A DNA stretch of 64,000 nucleotides from Bacteroidota bacterium (GTDB taxonomy: Bacteria > Bacteroidota > Bacteroidia > Chitinophagales > Chitinophagaceae). The notes under the pieces were generated by a model. That model ran no database searches and was not told the DNA's origin. It saw nothing but the letters and a program-made list of their open reading frames with translations. The stretch covers positions 1 to 64,000 of the forward strand of contig JABDGS010000002.1 of the NCBI GenBank assembly GCA_013285915.1, in the 5' to 3' direction. Below are positions 6,320 to 40,569 of the stretch, one piece after another. The position numbers and the translations under genes are program-made. Each line of letters opens with the position of its first letter. Position 1 is the stretch's first letter.

Positions 6320-6990
6320 GTGATTTGAGAATAGTGCCCCTCATATTGACATTGCTAATAATTATCACCTCATCCTGCAATTTTGTTGGTGGCTCAAATG
6401 GTAATGCCATTGAGTTTGACACTCTTCGTCCTCCAAAAGATAGCTTAACCGTCTATTTCAAGGCGAAAAGCAACGAGCAAGACAAGACAGCCGATGGGTT
6501 AAGCGACTTTGCAAATAGGTGGTATTCACAAATGTTATTTGCTTTAAAAGAGCCGGTTTTAAAAGATTATAAAGGAAGCAAAGAAATATATCGTTTTACA
6601 TGGCTGAGAACATTTAATCACCCGATTTCTATAAGGCTTGAATGCCAGGATGGCAATGTATTGTTGTTTAGCAAGGTTTGTGATGGGAAAGGCGGCTACC
6701 AGCCAGGAAAAATTATGTTTGATAAGTACCTCACTCTTACAACTGGCGCAATTGATATTTGTCGCAAAAAAGTAGAGGAAGCGGCCTTTTGGTCACAACC
6801 AACCGAAATAAAAAGTGAAGGCCTGGATGGCTCAGAATGGATTATTGAAGCGGTTAAAAATGGTAAATATCACATGGTTGTGCGGTGGTCACCAGATGAA
6901 GATCAATCTGAGAAATTTAGAGCAATTGGGAAATATTTAATTTCTTTATCACGAATAGAAAATGAAACAGCCGGTGACAATTATTACTAG
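6316..6990 (+). CDS. Putative lipoprotein, unknown function
   Basis: I do not recognise this family. The frame opens with TTG at 6316, overlapping the apaG stop codon by four bases; an in-frame GTG at 6334 is the other option, and there is no ATG before the signal sequence. A hydrophobic segment (LILTLLIIIT) ends in a lipobox-like TSSC, so the protein is probably lipid-anchored. The mature part of about 200 residues is charged, with KAKSNEQDKTADGLSDFANRW and repeated aromatic strands; no catalytic motif is evident. Overlap with apaG points to translational coupling. It is somewhat AT-richer than apaG. Start codon choice is uncertain. Confidence 0.72.
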   Translation: MSDLRIVPLILTLLIIITSSCNFVGGSNGNAIEFDTLRPPKDSLTVYFKAKSNEQDKTADGLSDFANRWYSQMLFALKEPVLKDYKGSKEIYRFTWLRTFNHPISIRLECQDGNVLLFSKVCDGKGGYQPGKIMFDKYLTLTTGAIDICRKKVEEAAFWSQPTEIKSEGLDGSEWIIEAVKNGKYHMVVRWSPDEDQSEKFRAIGKYLISLSRIENETAGDNYY

Positions 6991-7068: not shown

Positions 7069-9993
7069 TCACACCAGCGCCTCCCACAACACTTCCACCG
7101 GGTGAAGCGCTTTTTTGCCTGTACCATCTTTTACCTGGTGGCGGCAACTGGTGCCGGGGGCGGCGATGATAACGTTATCGGCAGCATTACGCACAGCAGG
7201 AAATAACACAAGCTCACCTATTTGCATGGATAGATCATAATGCTCTTTCTCATACCCAAAACTGCCCGCCATGCCGCAACAACCGGATGGGATAGTTTCC
7301 ACCTTATAGTTCTCCGGCAGCGACATCATTTTTACACTGCCCGCAGTTGAAATAAGTGCTTTTTGCTGGCAGTGGCCATGCAGTTTTATAAGCCTGCTTT
7401 CTTTGGTAAACTGCGCAGCGGTTATATTGCCTTTATCAATTTCGCGGGCTATAAAATCATCAATTAAAAACGTATTTGCTGCGAGGTTTTTGGCGGTGTC
7501 TAAATCATTATCATCAGCAAGATCAATGTACTCATCCCTGAAGGTTAATATCGCGGATGGCTCGATACCTATCAATGGCGTTTCATCTGTTATTAAACCG
7601 CGTAACAAAGCTACATTTTTCTGTGCAATTTTTTTTGCATCGCGCAGCAAGCCTTTGCTAAGCCATGCACGGCCGCTTTCTTCATGCTCGGGTATTACAA
7701 CATCGTAACCAAGCTTCTCTAATAATTCGACAGCCTTAATACCAATATGCGTATCGTTATAATTAGTAAACTCATCACAAAAAAGATAAACTCTTTTCCC
7801 GGTTGACGATTGACGATTGGCGATTGACGATTCATGTTTCTTCCACCACCCTCTCAACGTCGTTTTTTGCAATGTGGGCATACTTCGTTTTTCTGCAAAG
7901 CCCGCGAAACGTTTTACCATTTTGCTCACTAAGCCGTTGGTCATCGCAAAATTATACATGCCGGGTACTATTGCTCCCAATTTAGCGCTGCTGTTAAACG
8001 TTGCAATAAGCTTTGCCCGCATAGGCACACCATTGGCATCGTAATAATGCTGTAAAAACTCTGCTTTTAGTTTTGCCATATCAACGTTGCTGGGGCATTC
8101 TGATTTGCAACCTTTGCAACTCAAACACAAATCCATCACTTCGTAAATCTCTTTATGGTCAAAGCGGTTTAGCTTATCTGAGTTGGTAAGAAATTCGCGT
8201 AAAATATTTGCCCTTGCGCGGGTGGTATCTTTCTCATTACGTGTTGCCATGAATGAAGGGCACATCGTGCCGCCGGACAATTGTGATTTCCTGCAATCTC
8301 CCGAGCCATTGCATTGCTCCGCATGCTGCAAAATATCCTGGTTGTTGAATCGAAAAACGGTTTTAAATGCAGGCGTTTGCTGCCCCGGCGCATAACGCAG
8401 CATACTGTTCATGCTGGGAGTATCAACAATTTTATTTGGATTGAAAATATTGTTGGGATCCCACGTATGTTTTATTTGCTTTAACAGCTGGTAGTTTTTT
8501 TCACCCACCATTTGCCTGATAAATTCACCGCGCAACCTTCCGTCACCATGCTCCCCGCTGAGGCTACCATTATATTTTTTTACCAGCGTTGCAATTTCTT
8601 CCGCAATGGCGCGGAATAGCTGATTGCCTTCTTTTGTTTTAAGGTTAATGATAGGCCTTAAATGTATTTCGCCACTGCCTGCATGCGCATAATGCACGGA
8701 ATACAGGCCATACTTTTTTAGTATCTCATTAAAGTCGCGTATATAGGCCGGAAGATCATTTACATCAACGGCAGTATCTTCTATAACAGGCACTGCTTTT
8801 TCATCACCCGGAAGATTGCTTAGCAAACCCAAACCAGCTTTGCGTAGTGACCAGATCTTTTTGCTGTCTTCACCAAATAATAATGGGAAATGATAACCCA
8901 GTCCCGCAGTCCTCATATCATCTTCTACCTGTTTTGCCAGGGCGATAATTTCTTCGCGGTTGGTGCGCGCAAATTCAATCACCAGTATAGCGCCGGGGTC
9001 GCCCTGTACAAAAAACCGGTTCTTGCTTTGTTCAATATTGCCTTTTGTGCATTCAAGTATGTAGTGGTCAATAAGCTCGCTTGCACTGGGTTTATATTTT
9101 AACGCAATAAGGTTTGCGCGCAGACTTTCATCAATGCTGTTAAAATGCACACATAGCAGGCCAACTTCTTTTGGCGGCAGCGGTACAACATTCAACTTTA
9201 TCTCTGTAATAAACGCAAGGGTGCCTTCGCTACCGGCAATAAGTTTGCAAAAATTAAAATCCTCTGTGCCGGCTGTAAAAGGTGCAGACTCAAGTAATAC
9301 ATCAACTGCATAACCCGTGTTTCTTCTCTCAACGCTCTTTTTAGGGAACTCCTTTCTTATTTCTACCTGTGCATCATAGTTGCTTAAAAGGCTGCGCGTG
9401 GTTTTATAAATATTAGCTTCTAAACTATTGCCTTCGCATTTGGTATGAAACTCATCAATAGTCAGACTATTAAACACCACCTCGCTGCCATCGCTTAGCA
9501 ATGCCTTTACTTCCAGTAAATGTTCACGCGTGCTTCTGTAAACTACCGAGTTTGAGCCGCATGAATTATTGCCCACCATCCCACCGATCATCGCGCGGTT
9601 GGCTGTTGAAGTTTCAGGCCCAAAAAACAGTCCATACGGTTTTAAAAACATGTTCAGCTCATCCCGCACCACGCCCGGCTGCACACGCACCCAGCCTTCT
9701 TCTTTATTCAGTTCAATAATTTTTGTAAAGTATTTTGAAACATCTGCAATTATGCCGTTGCCTACAACCTGCCCTGCCAGTGAAGTACCCGCAGTGCGCG
9801 GAATAAGTGAAGTTTTTTCGGCTGCTGCAAAAGAAATAAGCTTTTTTATATCATCAATTGTTTTTGGCACAGCGACGGCCAGCGGCATTTCACGGTATGC
9901 TGAAGCATCCGTAGCATACAACGTGCGCATGGTATCATCAAAATAAAACTCACCTTCCAGTTCAGTAGCTAATTGCTGCAACTTATCCTTCAT
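7069..9993 (-). CDS. FAD-linked oxidase with Fe-S and cysteine-rich (CCG) domains
   Basis: A 974-residue oxidoreductase, joined in one chain like YdiJ and D-lactate/2-hydroxyglutarate dehydrogenases. The N-terminal part is a FAD_binding_4 domain (PRTAGTSLAGQVVGNGI, then GGMVGNNSCGSNSVVY), followed by the FAD-oxidase C domain (GEHGDGRLRGEF). Iron-sulfur motifs come next (CNGSGDCRKSQLSGGTMCPS; CLSCKGCKSECPSNVDMAK). The C-terminus has CCG-type repeats (HGHCQQKAL, IPSGCCGMAGSFGYE). Start 9993 (MKDKLQQLATELEG) is chosen over the longer frame because the extra 29 residues look like untranslated leader. Residues about 721-730 (SSIANRQSST) are encoded by a 7-bp-period repeat. The LacI regulator gene lies 91 bp upstream on the same strand. 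The substrate is unknown, probably a 2-hydroxy acid. Confidence 0.88.
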   Translation of the reverse strand: MKDKLQQLATELEGEFYFDDTMRTLYATDASAYREMPLAVAVPKTIDDIKKLISFAAAEKTSLIPRTAGTSLAGQVVGNGIIADVSKYFTKIIELNKEEGWVRVQPGVVRDELNMFLKPYGLFFGPETSTANRAMIGGMVGNNSCGSNSVVYRSTREHLLEVKALLSDGSEVVFNSLTIDEFHTKCEGNSLEANIYKTTRSLLSNYDAQVEIRKEFPKKSVERRNTGYAVDVLLESAPFTAGTEDFNFCKLIAGSEGTLAFITEIKLNVVPLPPKEVGLLCVHFNSIDESLRANLIALKYKPSASELIDHYILECTKGNIEQSKNRFFVQGDPGAILVIEFARTNREEIIALAKQVEDDMRTAGLGYHFPLLFGEDSKKIWSLRKAGLGLLSNLPGDEKAVPVIEDTAVDVNDLPAYIRDFNEILKKYGLYSVHYAHAGSGEIHLRPIINLKTKEGNQLFRAIAEEIATLVKKYNGSLSGEHGDGRLRGEFIRQMVGEKNYQLLKQIKHTWDPNNIFNPNKIVDTPSMNSMLRYAPGQQTPAFKTVFRFNNQDILQHAEQCNGSGDCRKSQLSGGTMCPSFMATRNEKDTTRARANILREFLTNSDKLNRFDHKEIYEVMDLCLSCKGCKSECPSNVDMAKLKAEFLQHYYDANGVPMRAKLIATFNSSAKLGAIVPGMYNFAMTNGLVSKMVKRFAGFAEKRSMPTLQKTTLRGWWKKHESSIANRQSSTGKRVYLFCDEFTNYNDTHIGIKAVELLEKLGYDVVIPEHEESGRAWLSKGLLRDAKKIAQKNVALLRGLITDETPLIGIEPSAILTFRDEYIDLADDNDLDTAKNLAANTFLIDDFIAREIDKGNITAAQFTKESRLIKLHGHCQQKALISTAGSVKMMSLPENYKVETIPSGCCGMAGSFGYEKEHYDLSMQIGELVLFPAVRNAADNVIIAAPGTSCRHQVKDGTGKKALHPVEVLWEALV
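7803..7830. repeat. 7-bp-period array inside the FAD/Fe-S oxidoreductase gene
   Basis: Units TTGACGA, TTGACGA, TTGGCGA, TTGACGA on the plus strand, 28 bp in all. It lies in the linker between the Fe-S region and the CCG domain, and the reading frame stays open through it. Confidence 0.85.
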
Positions 9994-10084
9994 TATGTGT
10001 TGCCATTTAAAAAGGGCGTGCAAAAATAATTGATTTAGGGGAGATGGGCTGGGCAGTTTAAGGTTGTAACGAAGCAGCATGAAA

Positions 10085-16892: not shown

Positions 16893-16927
16893 CAATCCGC
16901 AATCTGCAATCGTCAATCTGCAATCCT
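16893..16927. repeat. 7-bp-period array, five units
   Basis: Units CAATCCG, CAATCTG, CAATCGT, CAATCTG, CAATCCT in a row. It lies between the tRNA and the YbjQ gene, ending just past that gene's stop codon. Confidence 0.85.
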
Positions 16928-18136: not shown

Positions 18137-19420
18137 ATGAAAACGAGTATAAAAAATTGGTTAATTGGTGCGGCTGTTTTGGCATGTGCGTCACTTACCA
18201 CTCTAAGTGCTGATGCGCAGCGCCACGGTGGCGGTGGCGGAGGTAGCCGCGGCGGTGGTGGTGGCGGAAGCTATCATGGCGGCGGAGGAGGTGGTAGCTA
18301 TCACAGCGGCAGCAGTTTTGGCGGCGGTAGCCGTGGCGGGTATAGCAATGGCTATAACGGCGGCGGTGGCAGAACATATTCTGCAAGGCCGTCTGCCCCG
18401 GCTTCAAACTTTCGTCCCGGTGGCGGGTATGCAGGCAACGGCCGTGGTTATACACCGGGTCGTGGTACTGCACCTTCACAAAATTTTATTCCTAACCGCG
18501 GAGGTTATGCTGGTAATGGGCGTGGCTACGCACCTGGTGGTGGCAATGCTGGTAACGGGCGTGGTTTCGAACCTGGTCGTGGTTATGCCGGTAATGGGCG
18601 TGGTTACGCACCTGGCGGTGGCAATGCCGGCAATGGCCGTGGTTTCGCACCTGGTCGTGGTTACGCCGGCAATGGTCGTGGTTTTGCTCCTGGTCCGGGC
18701 CGCGGTGGTTACACATACGCTGGCCGCGGCGGTTCACGCTATGGTGGCGGCTATGGCCGTTACTCGTCAGTAAATTTCCGCGGCGTAGGGTATCATTATT
18801 ATAATGGTTATTTCTACCGTTCTTACGGCTGGGGTTTTGGCCTTGCCTACCCGCCATTCGGTATACATATTGGGTTGCTGCCTTACGGGTACTACCCGTT
18901 TTATATAGGCCCCAATCCTTACTACTACTACGGTGGTATATTTTACCAGCCATACAATGGCGGCGGATACCAGGTAGTTGCACCACCATTAAACTCGCTG
19001 GTGCCTGAATTGCCACAGGGCGCCCAGTTACAGGATATTGACGGACAGGAATACTACGAATACAATGGCACCTATTACCGCCAGGAAACAAGGGATAACG
19101 GTGAAGTTTGGTTTAGGGTGGTAGGCACGAACGGCCACCTGCAAACTGGAGGCGGACAATACAACGACAACGATGACCAGTACCAGCCTGCACCACGTAC
19201 ACAGGACCAGGAACAGGAAACACCTCCCTCATCACAGGCGACACCACACATAGGTGATATGGTGTACCAGTTACCGCAGGACTGCAAGGAGTTAACCATT
19301 AGCGGCGAAAAGTTTTATCTTTCACCCGATGGTTTATACTACCAGCAGGTGGTTGGCGACGATAATAAGGTAATGTACCAGATTGTTGAAAAACCAAGAG
19401 ACGAAGCACAACAGCCATAA
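18137..19420 (+). CDS. Glycine/arginine-rich DUF6515-type envelope protein
   Basis: Starts considered are 18125 and 18137; the latter gives MKTSIKNWLIGAAVLACASL, a good signal peptide ending near ADAQ. Residues about 30-90 are RGGGGGS-rich. Residues 123-187 hold five tandem 13-residue units of the pattern GYAGNGRGYAPGG. An aromatic segment rich in YYNGYFYRSYGWG, YYPFY and YYYYGG follows. The C-terminal half has two DUF6515-like pieces (LPQGAQLQDIDGQEYYEYNG with TYYRQE, and LPQDCKELTISGEKFYLSPD with LYYQQV). Function unknown; probably an exported envelope protein. A strong terminator follows. Confidence 0.82.
   Translation: MKTSIKNWLIGAAVLACASLTTLSADAQRHGGGGGGSRGGGGGGSYHGGGGGGSYHSGSSFGGGSRGGYSNGYNGGGGRTYSARPSAPASNFRPGGGYAGNGRGYTPGRGTAPSQNFIPNRGGYAGNGRGYAPGGGNAGNGRGFEPGRGYAGNGRGYAPGGGNAGNGRGFAPGRGYAGNGRGFAPGPGRGGYTYAGRGGSRYGGGYGRYSSVNFRGVGYHYYNGYFYRSYGWGFGLAYPPFGIHIGLLPYGYYPFYIGPNPYYYYGGIFYQPYNGGGYQVVAPPLNSLVPELPQGAQLQDIDGQEYYEYNGTYYRQETRDNGEVWFRVVGTNGHLQTGGGQYNDNDDQYQPAPRTQDQEQETPPSSQATPHIGDMVYQLPQDCKELTISGEKFYLSPDGLYYQQVVGDDNKVMYQIVEKPRDEAQQP
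18503..18697 (+). repeat. Five tandem 39-bp coding repeats
   Basis: Five in-frame 39-bp units encode G-[YN]-AGNGRG-[YF]-[AE]-PG-[GRP]. Units alternate between GYAGNGRG and GNAGNGRG types, as if a 78-bp pair had been duplicated. Unit number could vary between strains by slippage. Confidence 0.85.
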
Positions 19421-31581: not shown

Positions 31582-31616
31582 AACTTTAAACTTTAAACTG
31601 GAAACTTTAAACTACC
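31582..31616. repeat. 7-bp-period array, five units
   Basis: Units AACTTTA, AACTTTA, AACTGGA, AACTTTA, AACTACC. Just before it lies TTCGCTCCAATCAA. The same pair in reverse orientation (AGTTTAA units then TTGATTGGAGCGAA) is at 38708-38750. Confidence 0.85.
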
Positions 31617-32189: not shown

Positions 32190-32575
32190 AACCTAGCCCC
32201 CAACTCACGCCAAAACCAGCACAAAAGACGCCAAATCGTAGCCAATCTGCGCCACCTGTTTTTTTACTAACTAATTGATTATCTTGTGTTTGCGGTTTAA
32301 AAATGCCAAAAATACCACATATTGTAATTTTTTTAATATCATCCAATCCCGGCCCAAATGTTGCCAAAATTGCTGGTTTAATTTTCACTTTTGTCTTTTC
32401 ACTTTTCACGCTTTTCATATTCGACTGACTTTTGACATTTCACTTTTCATTCTTCAAACTTCAAACTGGAAACACCCTCTCCTTCGCTTCAATAACCGGA
32501 AACTTGAAACCGGAAACTGGTAACTTTCTCCTCCCTACTACTATATATACAAAACACTGTTTTGTCCGCTAAAAG
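32190..32575 (-). repeat. Dispersed element, copy B (inverted relative to 844-1340)
   Basis: Read on the minus strand this copy starts with TAGCGGACAAAACAG and the palindrome ACAAAAC-AGT-GTTTTGT (32550-32566), continues through a 7-bp-period array (32491-32525) and an 80-codon frame (32418-32176), and shares GGCTACGATTTGGCGTCTTT with copy A. It is about 75 bp shorter than copy A because it lacks the three spaced GGTTGAAGGT units. It occupies most of the gap 32090-32766, together with the palindromic repeats on either side. Confidence 0.75.
32491..32525. repeat. 7-bp-period array, five units
   Basis: Units AATAACC, GGAAACT, TGAAACC, GGAAACT, GGTAACT. It sits inside dispersed element copy B and corresponds in reverse to the array at 988-1015. 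A weaker TTTTCAC-like heptamer pattern precedes it at about 32388-32425. Confidence 0.8.
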
Positions 32576-38707: not shown

Positions 38708-39120
38708 AGTTTAAAGTTTAAAGTTTAAAGTTTATAGTTGATTGGAGCGAAGTGGCAGAAGCTGAATAGCGCTGTCATCACGCGAAACGCGTGATCTGTT
38801 GAAGAATAGCATTATGTCCAATAGCATTACTACAGCAAATGCAATAAAAACTATTTGCCCGGCTGCACACCATTATTCACCGTCCCTTGTGTCACTCAGT
38901 TGTACTGCGGTACCCTCGTCGGCTGTTCCTTGGCAGCTTTGCATGTAATACAATGGAACGCAGATAACCAGGATTGTTAGGATTTATAGGATTGCAAGGC
39001 ATCTGCGTTCATCCTGAACATCCTTTTCATCTGCGTTCAATTAATTTCAGCCGAAGGCTATGAAAAAAACTCCTTTACTCTGTGTTTCTTCAACTCCTGC
39101 CTTTCCTCTGTGGTTAAAGT
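38708..39120. repeat. Repeat-filled gap between glnS and tilS
   Basis: It begins with a 7-bp-period array of AGTTTAA units (38708-38740) followed by TTGATTGGAGCGAA, the reverse of the pair at 31561-31616. A GATGACAGC-type palindrome (CACGCGAAACGCGTG) lies at about 38770-38790. The end has a diverged copy of the CTCTGTG-type repeat (39067-39120) and a TTAGGATTTATAGGATTG-like piece. I find no gene here. Confidence 0.7.
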
Positions 39121-39144: not shown

Positions 39145-40569
39145 ATGGCCGGATTACTTCAACAGTTTCAGCAGCACCTGCAAAAGCAGTTTCCTTTCCT
39201 GCACCCATCGCACAGTAAGCTAATATTGGCGGTAAGTGGGGGAGTGGATAGTATTGTATTAACTGACCTGTTTTACAAGGCCGGTTATGACTTCATCATC
39301 GCCCATTGCAACTTTCAATTAAGAGGCGAGGAGAGCAACAGAGATGAAGCCTTTGTAAAAAGCCTTGAAAACAAATATGGCAAACCTGTATTGGTAAAAC
39401 ATTTTGATACCGGAGCATTCGCGCAACAGCACAAACTATCTATCCAGGAAGCAGCAAGAAAATTGCGCTATGAGTGGTTTGAAAGCGTGAAACGTGAAAC
39501 GTCAAACGTGAATAAAGAAGAGAAAAAACTAAACGCGCCTGGAGAAAACACATCATCATTCACGATTGACGATTCACGATTCCCGTCTCACATCACCACC
39601 GCCCACCACGCCAACGACAACATTGAAACGCTGCTGATAAATTTTTTCCGCGGTACCGGTATCAGCGGCCTGCATGGCATACCGGCAAAACAAAGCGATA
39701 TTATACGCCCCTTACTGTTTGCAAAACGCGGGGAGATATTGGCGTACGCAAAAGAAAATAATTTGGATTGGGTAGAAGATTCAAGCAATGCTTCTGATAA
39801 ATATACGCGCAACTTTATCCGGCTGCAAATGTTGCCCGCGGCAAAAGAAATATTTGCAAATGCTGAAGATAACCTGTTGCAAAATATTGAACGGTTTAAA
39901 GAAGCAGAAACGCTGTATACGCAGGCTGTTGAGTTGCACAAAAAAAAGCTGCTTGAACAAAAAGGGAGCGAGTGGCACATACCTGTACTAAAACTGCAAA
40001 AAGCTGAGCCGCTGCAAACGCTTGTGTGGGAGATAATAAAACCATTCGGCTTTACCGCTGCCCAAACGCAGGAAGTAATAAAGCTTTTGCAGTCCGGCAA
40101 CGGCAGTTATATTTCATCATTAACACACCGCATTATAAAAAACCGCGCGTGGCTTATAATTGCTCCAAGTAAATCGCGGGAAGCCAATCATATTTTAATT
40201 GAAGAAGGTGAGAAGAAAATAATATTTGAAGAAGGCTCTCTCGCGCTTAACATTGTTGCAAACAATAATTCATCCATATCTTCCGATGCATGCATAGCCA
40301 TGCTTGATGCAGCAAATATTCAGTTCCCTTTATTGCTGCGTAAATGGAAGACCGGCGATTATTTTTACCCGCTCGGTATGCAAAAAAAGAAAAAGCTAAA
40401 CCGCTTTTTTATTGATCAAAAATTATCAGCTACCGGTAAAGAAAAAACCTGGGTGCTGGAGATGGATAAAAAAATAATTTGGATAATAGGCCTGCGTATT
40501 GATAACAGGTTTAAAATCACGCCTTCAACTAAACAAATATTGAAGATTGAGTTTACTAAAAACTCTTAA
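39145..40569 (+). CDS. tilS: tRNA(Ile)-lysidine synthetase
   Basis: The 474-residue protein is TilS, which changes C34 of tRNA-Ile(CAU) to lysidine and so lets it read AUA. The PP-loop ATP motif is LAVSGGVDSIVLTDLF, the next conserved block is HCNFQLRGEESNRDEAFV, then AARKLRYEWF and ITTAHHANDNIETLLINFFRGTGISGL. The C-terminal TilS_C domain is KWKTGDYFYPLGMQKKKKLNRFFID. Between RYEWF and the ITTAHH block, about 40 residues replace the roughly dozen expected. This insert is encoded by two 7-bp-period arrays. Essential in most bacteria, so the insert is presumably tolerated. The 3' end overlaps the convergent rhomboid gene by 14 bp. Confidence 0.95.
   Translation: MAGLLQQFQQHLQKQFPFLHPSHSKLILAVSGGVDSIVLTDLFYKAGYDFIIAHCNFQLRGEESNRDEAFVKSLENKYGKPVLVKHFDTGAFAQQHKLSIQEAARKLRYEWFESVKRETSNVNKEEKKLNAPGENTSSFTIDDSRFPSHITTAHHANDNIETLLINFFRGTGISGLHGIPAKQSDIIRPLLFAKRGEILAYAKENNLDWVEDSSNASDKYTRNFIRLQMLPAAKEIFANAEDNLLQNIERFKEAETLYTQAVELHKKKLLEQKGSEWHIPVLKLQKAEPLQTLVWEIIKPFGFTAAQTQEVIKLLQSGNGSYISSLTHRIIKNRAWLIIAPSKSREANHILIEEGEKKIIFEEGSLALNIVANNNSSISSDACIAMLDAANIQFPLLLRKWKTGDYFYPLGMQKKKKLNRFFIDQKLSATGKEKTWVLEMDKKIIWIIGLRIDNRFKITPSTKQILKIEFTKNS
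39486..39513. repeat. 7-bp-period array inside tilS, first
   Basis: Units CGTGAAA, CGTGAAA, CGTCAAA, CGTGAAT, 28 bp, read in frame as part of VKRETSNVN. Confidence 0.85.
39559..39586. repeat. 7-bp-period array inside tilS, second
   Basis: Units TTCACGA, TTGACGA, TTCACGA, TTCCCGT, 28 bp, read in frame as part of FTIDDSRFPS. The unit resembles the one in the array at 7803-7830. Confidence 0.85.

Follow-up and report, generated by a model that had tools for sequence, protein, structure and literature searches.

In Chitinophagaceae, heptamer arrays form a genome-wide population, and the long loop of the tRNA(Ile)-lysidine synthase gene (tilS) analyzed here is one of its members that lies inside a gene; the heptamers of the loop are drawn from a vocabulary typical of the genome. 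The same loop is a recurrent target of such arrays in related species. In the two array-rich genomes sampled, the arrays hug the edges of genes and point inward, away from the coding block that they adjoin, whichever way the gene is transcribed.

The tilS gene and its product

The window, i.e., the whole stretch of 64,000 nucleotides that was analyzed, contains one intact tilS gene with two arrays inside its coding sequence:

39145-40569, + strand: tilS, tRNA(Ile)-lysidine synthase, 474 amino acids, intact (open reading frame, Pfam, PDB sequence and fold matches to TilS)
39486-39513, + strand: left array of about four heptamers (CGTGAAA CGTGAAA CGTCAAA CGTGAAT) encoding approximately residues 114-123; it reads away from the left coding block and holds two exact matches of the dispersed motif described below
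39514-39557, + strand: spacer between the arrays, rich in lysine, glutamate, and asparagine, approximately residues 124-138 (sequence, pLDDT)
39558-39586, - strand: right array (ATTCACG ATTGACG ATTCACG ATTC), which is of the CGTGAAT type on the minus strand and encodes approximately residues 139-148 (sequence, repeat scan, inverted-repeat comparison, dispersed motif)

Tandem Repeats Finder placed period-7 arrays at 39480-39512 and 39558-39582, close to the two 28-bp arrays (39486-39513 and 39559-39586) to which a preliminary description of this DNA had attributed the additional part of the protein, and the lysine- and asparagine-rich middle that it had noted between them is present in the sequence. 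That description recorded neither the mutual inversion of the two arrays nor their membership in a dispersed, oriented population of the genome. The inverted arms are 33 nt long, 82% complementary, and 34 nt apart, with CGTGAAA-type units on the left and TTCACGA-type units on the right, and hairpin folding of the loop strand beats that of shuffled sequences (z -3.9). As the unit of 7 nt is not a multiple of three, an array passes through all three reading frames and has to be free of stop codons in each of them.

TilS is normally an essential enzyme. The product encoded here exceeds the Pfam cut-offs for both ATP_bind_3 and TilS_C, and thus combines the PP-loop ATPase with the TilS C-terminal domain; its SGGVDS sequence (SGGxDS motif) is invariant across the TilS alignment. 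Outside the loop, comparison with the same-genus genome G001 yielded 184 nonsynonymous differences per 1032 sites and 210 synonymous differences per 276 sites, the latter being saturated. Judged by these differences and by the open frame, the gene looks functional, as had been supposed. It is the single tilS match in the genome, the assembly of which is only 63% complete. Rfam gave no matches between 38600 and 40700.

A structure prediction, suggested earlier as a check on the loop, agrees with this picture. The AlphaFold2 model, built from 47 sequences, has a mean pLDDT of 89.9, and its best fold matches in the PDB are TilS structures (3a2k, 2e21, 1wy5, and 1ni5). Residues 134-143, within the long loop, form the sole segment with a pLDDT below 50. 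Outside this loop, which is predicted to be disordered, the modeled fold is of high confidence and resembles TilS. When compared with solved TilS proteins, the Aquifex alignment falls into two pieces, the first ending at query residue 115 and the second restarting at residue 149, so that the loop stays uncovered.

The tilS loop among relatives

Searching 59 relatives and scanning named genomes (80 loci from Chitinophagaceae and unclassified relatives) yielded 110 tilS loci, in 94 of which the loop (LRYxWF to AHH) was readable by pattern; the other 16 were dropped, and L007 belongs to the same genome as L123. The commonest loop length is 14 residues (32 of 94 readable loci) versus 40 residues from RYEWF to AHH in the window, which bears out the claim that the loop exceeds the short one of the family. 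Period-7 arrays with a score of at least 10 were found in 18 of the 94 readable loops and in 15 of the 44 that are at least 20 residues long, and none of 8800 codon-shuffled loops reached this score. Since the remaining 29 of the 44 long loops carry no array, arrays are either not the sole route of loop growth or have decayed. One long loop (L149) has CAGACGCCCTCGTCGGACG and CGTCCGACGAGGGCGTCTG as a heptamer-free inverted pair, which may be a further palindromic element.

Close relatives with the same loop devoid of repeats would have spoken against the preliminary description, but the loops of two same-genus relatives, 44 and 71 residues long, each carry heptamer arrays of their own. The heptamers are mostly species-specific, e.g., AGTTAAA/AGTGAAA in L002, GGTCAAT and ATTCACC in L117, GGGCAAT and CTCACCA in L009, GAAGTCT and CTGCCGT in L111, with others elsewhere; the right array of L006, a same-genus locus, is of the ATTCACG type, as in the window. 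At loci with both arrays, these begin 5-12 nt after and stop 7-19 nt before the limits of the loop. A second, C-terminal tilS loop also bears arrays in some species (L006, L003, L140, L155, L170, and L173).

Across the named loci (1.51 Mb), tilS accounts for 19 of the 23 genic arrays (15 of 80 tilS genes), versus four in three of about 838 other genes (Fisher p = 2e-14), where the number of other genes assumes one predicted tilS per locus and the neighbors constitute a non-random gene set.

A dispersed population of heptamer arrays

A period scan of the window (score at least 12) found six arrays of period 7, four of them beyond the tilS pair, and none of periods 5, 6, 8, 9, 10, or 11. Five mononucleotide shuffles of the window contained no period-7 array at this score, so tandem heptanucleotides occur beyond chance. 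The arrays outside tilS are as follows:

7803-7832, - strand: TTGACGA array within the gene of an FAD-oxidase/4Fe-4S protein (7069-10080, - strand; Tandem Repeats Finder, gene finder)
16893-16925, - strand: CAATCTG array, 4 nt from the stop of a minus-strand gene (Tandem Repeats Finder, gene finder)
31582-31613, no strand assigned: AACTTTA array between two divergent genes (Tandem Repeats Finder, gene finder)
32426-32467, no strand assigned: degenerate array of heptamers within a long stretch between genes (period scan, gene finder)
38708-38739, + strand: AGTTTAA array, 8 nt past the stop of the upstream gene (Tandem Repeats Finder, gene finder)

A glycine-rich coding-type repeat of period 39/78 at 18503-18695 (ATGCCGGTAATGGGCGTGG...) is unrelated to the heptamers.

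In the genome of the window (G000), the pattern CGTSAAWCGTSAAWCGTSAA with at most two mismatches has 102 + 80 = 182 matches, versus 0 + 1 for the reversed control; arrays are fewer than matches because matches overlap. Other Chitinophagaceae contain 620 (G005), 329 (G002), 97 (G027), or 88 (G017) matches, and many have none. Among 118 sampled genomes of the phylum, any match was found in 12, and outside the family there were never more than 13. A second motif, GGTSAAT, occurs 439 times in G005 and 250 times in G027 and is absent from the genome of the window; in G029, which has 55 matches, the control scores as well, with 30.

Variation between units falls mainly at certain positions. GTNAA-type units, selected on positions 2, 3, 5, and 6 and not on position 4, have only G (137) or C (76) at position 4 in G005 (n = 213), with position 1 free to vary; in G000 (n = 92), position 4 is G or C in 84 units and position 7 is T or A in 86. 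In G000, G005, and G002, units preferentially exchange G with C and A with T; G028 and the named loci do not show this. As separate observations, 400 kb of G005 (L241-L260) also contain 17 arrays of period 8, compared with 80 of period 7, whose cores resemble heptamers (e.g., AGTGAATA), and a strong/weak pattern, SSWSWWW, is common to several classes and inward in 26 vs. 0 cases in G000 and 20 vs. 2 in G005, with few independent classes.

Besides tilS, arrays are borne by genes predicted to encode an NAD-dependent DNA ligase, an Lhr-type and a UvrD/PcrA-type helicase, LpxB, a GltD-like oxidoreductase, cysteinyl-tRNA synthetase, an amidohydrolase, two GHMP kinases, the FAD-oxidase/Fe-S protein, and an M13 peptidase. 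Three cases may be singled out. The coding sequence of the ligase (L188:9446-9531) contains an inverted AGATGAC / TCATCTG pair with a hairpin z of -7.1. The Lhr-type helicase gene (L221:5297-5371 and 6578-6604) has a third array in addition to an inward pair (GTCAATG / ATTCACC). Heptamer arrays in GHMP-kinase genes of two species (L113:6711-6744 and L139:6498-6590; IspE-like by our reading) possibly mark a second recurrent target.

Arrays at gene edges and their orientation

Genes were called by a simple codon-usage finder; their edges, above all the starts, are therefore approximate, and some arrays counted as genic are possibly mis-called. Of the intergenic arrays, 17 of 56 in G000 (864 kb) and 22 of 72 in G005 (400 kb) are no more than 5 nt from a gene edge, where random placement gives 6% in either genome; the figures are 3 of 15 in G001 (2.5% at random) and 11 of 55 at the named loci (9% at random). 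As to whether arrays hug edges by supplying stop codons, some stops are in array register and others clearly are not.

Orientation was compared between pairs of arrays of the same class, i.e., the same cyclic heptamer with at most one mismatch, at an array score threshold of 10. Within 30 nt of an edge, 134 of 140 such pairs in G000 (37 arrays) and 241 of 246 in G005 (46 arrays; 205 of 210 at a threshold of 11) agreed with an inward rule. None of 20,000 runs of random flips matched these values in either genome, even when 62% of arrays were set inward. Stops and starts on both strands all obey the rule in G000 and G005; the orientation thus depends on which flank of the block an array occupies, whichever way the gene is transcribed. 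The opposite ends of one gap in G005 often have different heptamer classes, both of them inward. An earlier class-wise clustering of G000 had merged unlike classes, with only 29 of 36 agreeing, and was replaced by the pairwise comparison.

Within tilS loops of at least 20 residues, GTSAA/GGSAA words and their reverse complements stand at 40:5 in left halves and 14:24 in right halves (Fisher p = 7e-7, although the words are non-independent and L124 alone supplies 15 of the 54 sense words). By the GT/AC measure, left tilS arrays are mixed (7:5) and right arrays are 11:2 with two ties. The tilS loop has this layout too and looks as if a gap of the kind found between genes had opened within one.

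The inward rule stands on G000 and G005, the two array-rich genomes sampled. The samples from G001, G002, G028, and G030 contain too few arrays to prove it. At the named loci the GT/AC measure gave 15 inward, 7 outward, and 5 ties (p = 0.067), which is not significant, and same-genome class pairs agreed with the rule in 2 of 2 cases within 30 nt and in 4 of 7 within 60 nt. The GT-versus-AC comparison was abandoned as a universal test of orientation: beyond G000 and G005 it did not reach significance, and a background bias appeared in its control. Gene edges without arrays have a mild inward excess of GT over AC, 277:185 in G000, 89:54 in G005, and 385:224 at the named loci, or about 60-63% of non-tied edges. 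Because these edges lean inward too, the orientation may partly reflect something older or more general; their bias possibly stems from decayed arrays or from a general bias.

Comparison with known repeat systems

Rickettsia palindromic elements insert in frame into genes at tolerated sites and have a palindromic layout. The arrays described here resemble them in these respects but have no common element sequence, their arms being taken from a genome-wide vocabulary. Of the likeness to these elements proposed earlier, the inverted pair and its hairpin thus hold, and a shared element does not, the heptamers of other species being different. Cyanobacterial STRR heptanucleotide repeats, or long simple sequence repeats, likewise have a period of 7 and genome-specific sequences. 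Both properties recur here; the orientation of STRR relative to coding edges is not mentioned in the available text of PMC4679880.

The TAACTGA repeats of Beggiatoaceae, Cyanobacteria, and five Bacteroidetes are, as far as the available text goes, dispersed 7-base direct repeats that are mostly intergenic and often beside start codons (MacGregor, 2015; PMC4679880), as here, and some heptamer arrays in Bacteroidetes appear in that study as well. That system, as presented there, consists of one heptamer with related ones rare in the main genome, whereas many classes per genome are found here; the inward orientation, seen at both starts and stops, and the repeated insertion into loops of housekeeping enzymes also set the present arrays apart from it. 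The tandem repeats of Borgs are described as fast-evolving, both intergenic and genic, and giving rise to disordered stretches of protein (PMC9879509, as far as available), in which they resemble the arrays here, but their in-ORF units are given as all divisible by three, unlike the unit of 7. DRT10, a telomerase-like reverse transcriptase described in the available text of PMC12632851, makes tandem-repeat DNA, and addition to 3' ends would give the orientation seen here; it is presented there as a defence system, however, and 8 of 11 array-rich genomes gave no match to the reverse transcriptase family RVT_1. Heptamer repeats are of a known kind. Neither the inward rule nor a tilS hotspot turned up in the literature searched, in which subscription journals are thinly covered.

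Origin of the arrays

The explanation that we prefer, tentatively and at a confidence short of even, is that heptamers are added or copied at free 3' ends flanking dispensable DNA while selection holds the coding edges. A break or gap in dispensable DNA would expose free 3' ends on both flanks, and a polymerase slipping on heptamer sequence, or copying from it, would extend each of them. The two extended ends would then be joined with some filler in between, and repeated trimming and re-extension would shift the junctions outward until selection on the coding blocks halted them. Extension of 3' ends on both flanks would give inward orientation on either side irrespective of gene direction, as in fused telomeres. 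In tilS the tolerated gap would be a surface loop, so that only stop-free, frame-keeping events would survive. In its favor are the dispersed family, the placement at edges, the inward orientation with different classes at the two ends of a gap, the distribution of words in the tilS loops, the non-identical arms of L001 and L117, and the greater frequency of Ku in array-rich genomes (see below). Against it are the array-rich genomes in which Ku or RVT_1 was not found, the non-significant orientation at the named loci, the mixed left arrays of tilS, the inward lean of array-less edges, and the position-specific variation of units, which plain slippage does not predict.

Three candidate causes or routes were considered and set aside. 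Firstly, Ku was found, in our own tally of same-family genomes at least 90% complete, in 9 of 11 array-rich versus 8 of 22 array-poor ones; it was not found in array-rich G002 and G022, and its commonness may simply follow genome size. Secondly, a reverse transcriptase is not a consistent companion of the arrays: a search for RVT_1 (E 1e-5), which a very divergent enzyme could escape, found none in G002, G005, G017, G022, G027, G028, G029, and G030. Thirdly, templating of one arm from the other does not fit L001 and L117, whose arms show a consistent difference at one position of each heptamer and so were not copied from one another.

Ordinary replication slippage, with arrays turning over by strand slippage (7 bases being a favored polymerase length) and persisting under weak selection in gaps and in the tilS loop alike, could by itself account for the dominance of period 7 and for array content that varies between relatives. 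A survey summarized in the available text of PMC4679880, in which heptamers outnumber other long simple repeats in many bacteria, also counts for it. We nevertheless regard slippage alone as rather unlikely, since it explains neither the inward orientation, nor the one vocabulary shared across a genome, nor variation confined to certain positions, such as the strict G or C at position 4 of all 213 units in G005.

Unlikely, too, is a selected function in DNA or RNA, in which arrays would bind a protein or form hairpins in RNA where genes end, the copy in tilS being either stray or regulatory. The conserved core with one or two variable positions per heptamer (1 and 4 in G005, 4 and 7 in G000) is motif-like, the arrays lie close to stops and starts, and translational control was proposed for the TAACTGA repeats in the part of the study available (MacGregor, 2015; PMC4679880). 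Against this, several unrelated classes share the same positions and orientation in one genome, vocabularies differ between genomes, starts and stops bear arrays alike, and no regulatory use suggests itself for arrays inside the genes of housekeeping enzymes.

A bolder variant of end extension, which we consider decidedly unlikely, would have an end-adding activity write heptamers onto broken chromosome ends before joining, in a manner resembling telomere addition, using several templates or copied arrays. The inward pairs, tilS included, would then be scars, and the loops of essential enzymes a record of repeated rounds.

A mobile palindromic element, similar to a MITE or a Rickettsia palindromic element, with heptamer arrays as its terminal inverted repeats in gaps and in tilS, appears very unlikely. 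Inverted pairs in tilS, ligA, and the Lhr-type helicase gene speak for it, with inverted terminal arms present at the tilS locus, as do strong hairpins (z -3.9, -5.4, and -7.1). Yet copies share no one element sequence, the ends of one gap are often of different heptamer classes, single arrays are common, and the same tilS site carries other heptamers in other species; moreover, no target-site duplication was visible by eye at the tilS locus, where no empty site is close enough for comparison. Finally, the recurrent lengthening of one loop could suggest a selected functional innovation of TilS, but this is highly improbable given that the loop sequence is unconserved even within the genus, its center is predicted to be disordered, and the second, C-terminal loop has been hit as well. 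For the enzyme the long loop is probably neutral ballast.

Implications

Heptamer repeats in bacterial genomes are usually ascribed to slippage. Arrays whose orientation is set by the flank of the coding block, irrespective of gene direction, point to a directional process at DNA ends. For such a process tilS offers a ready record, in which one loop in many species holds different heptamers between fixed coding edges. It also illustrates that repeat units which are out of frame, 7 not being a multiple of three, can still build protein sequence of a housekeeping enzyme.
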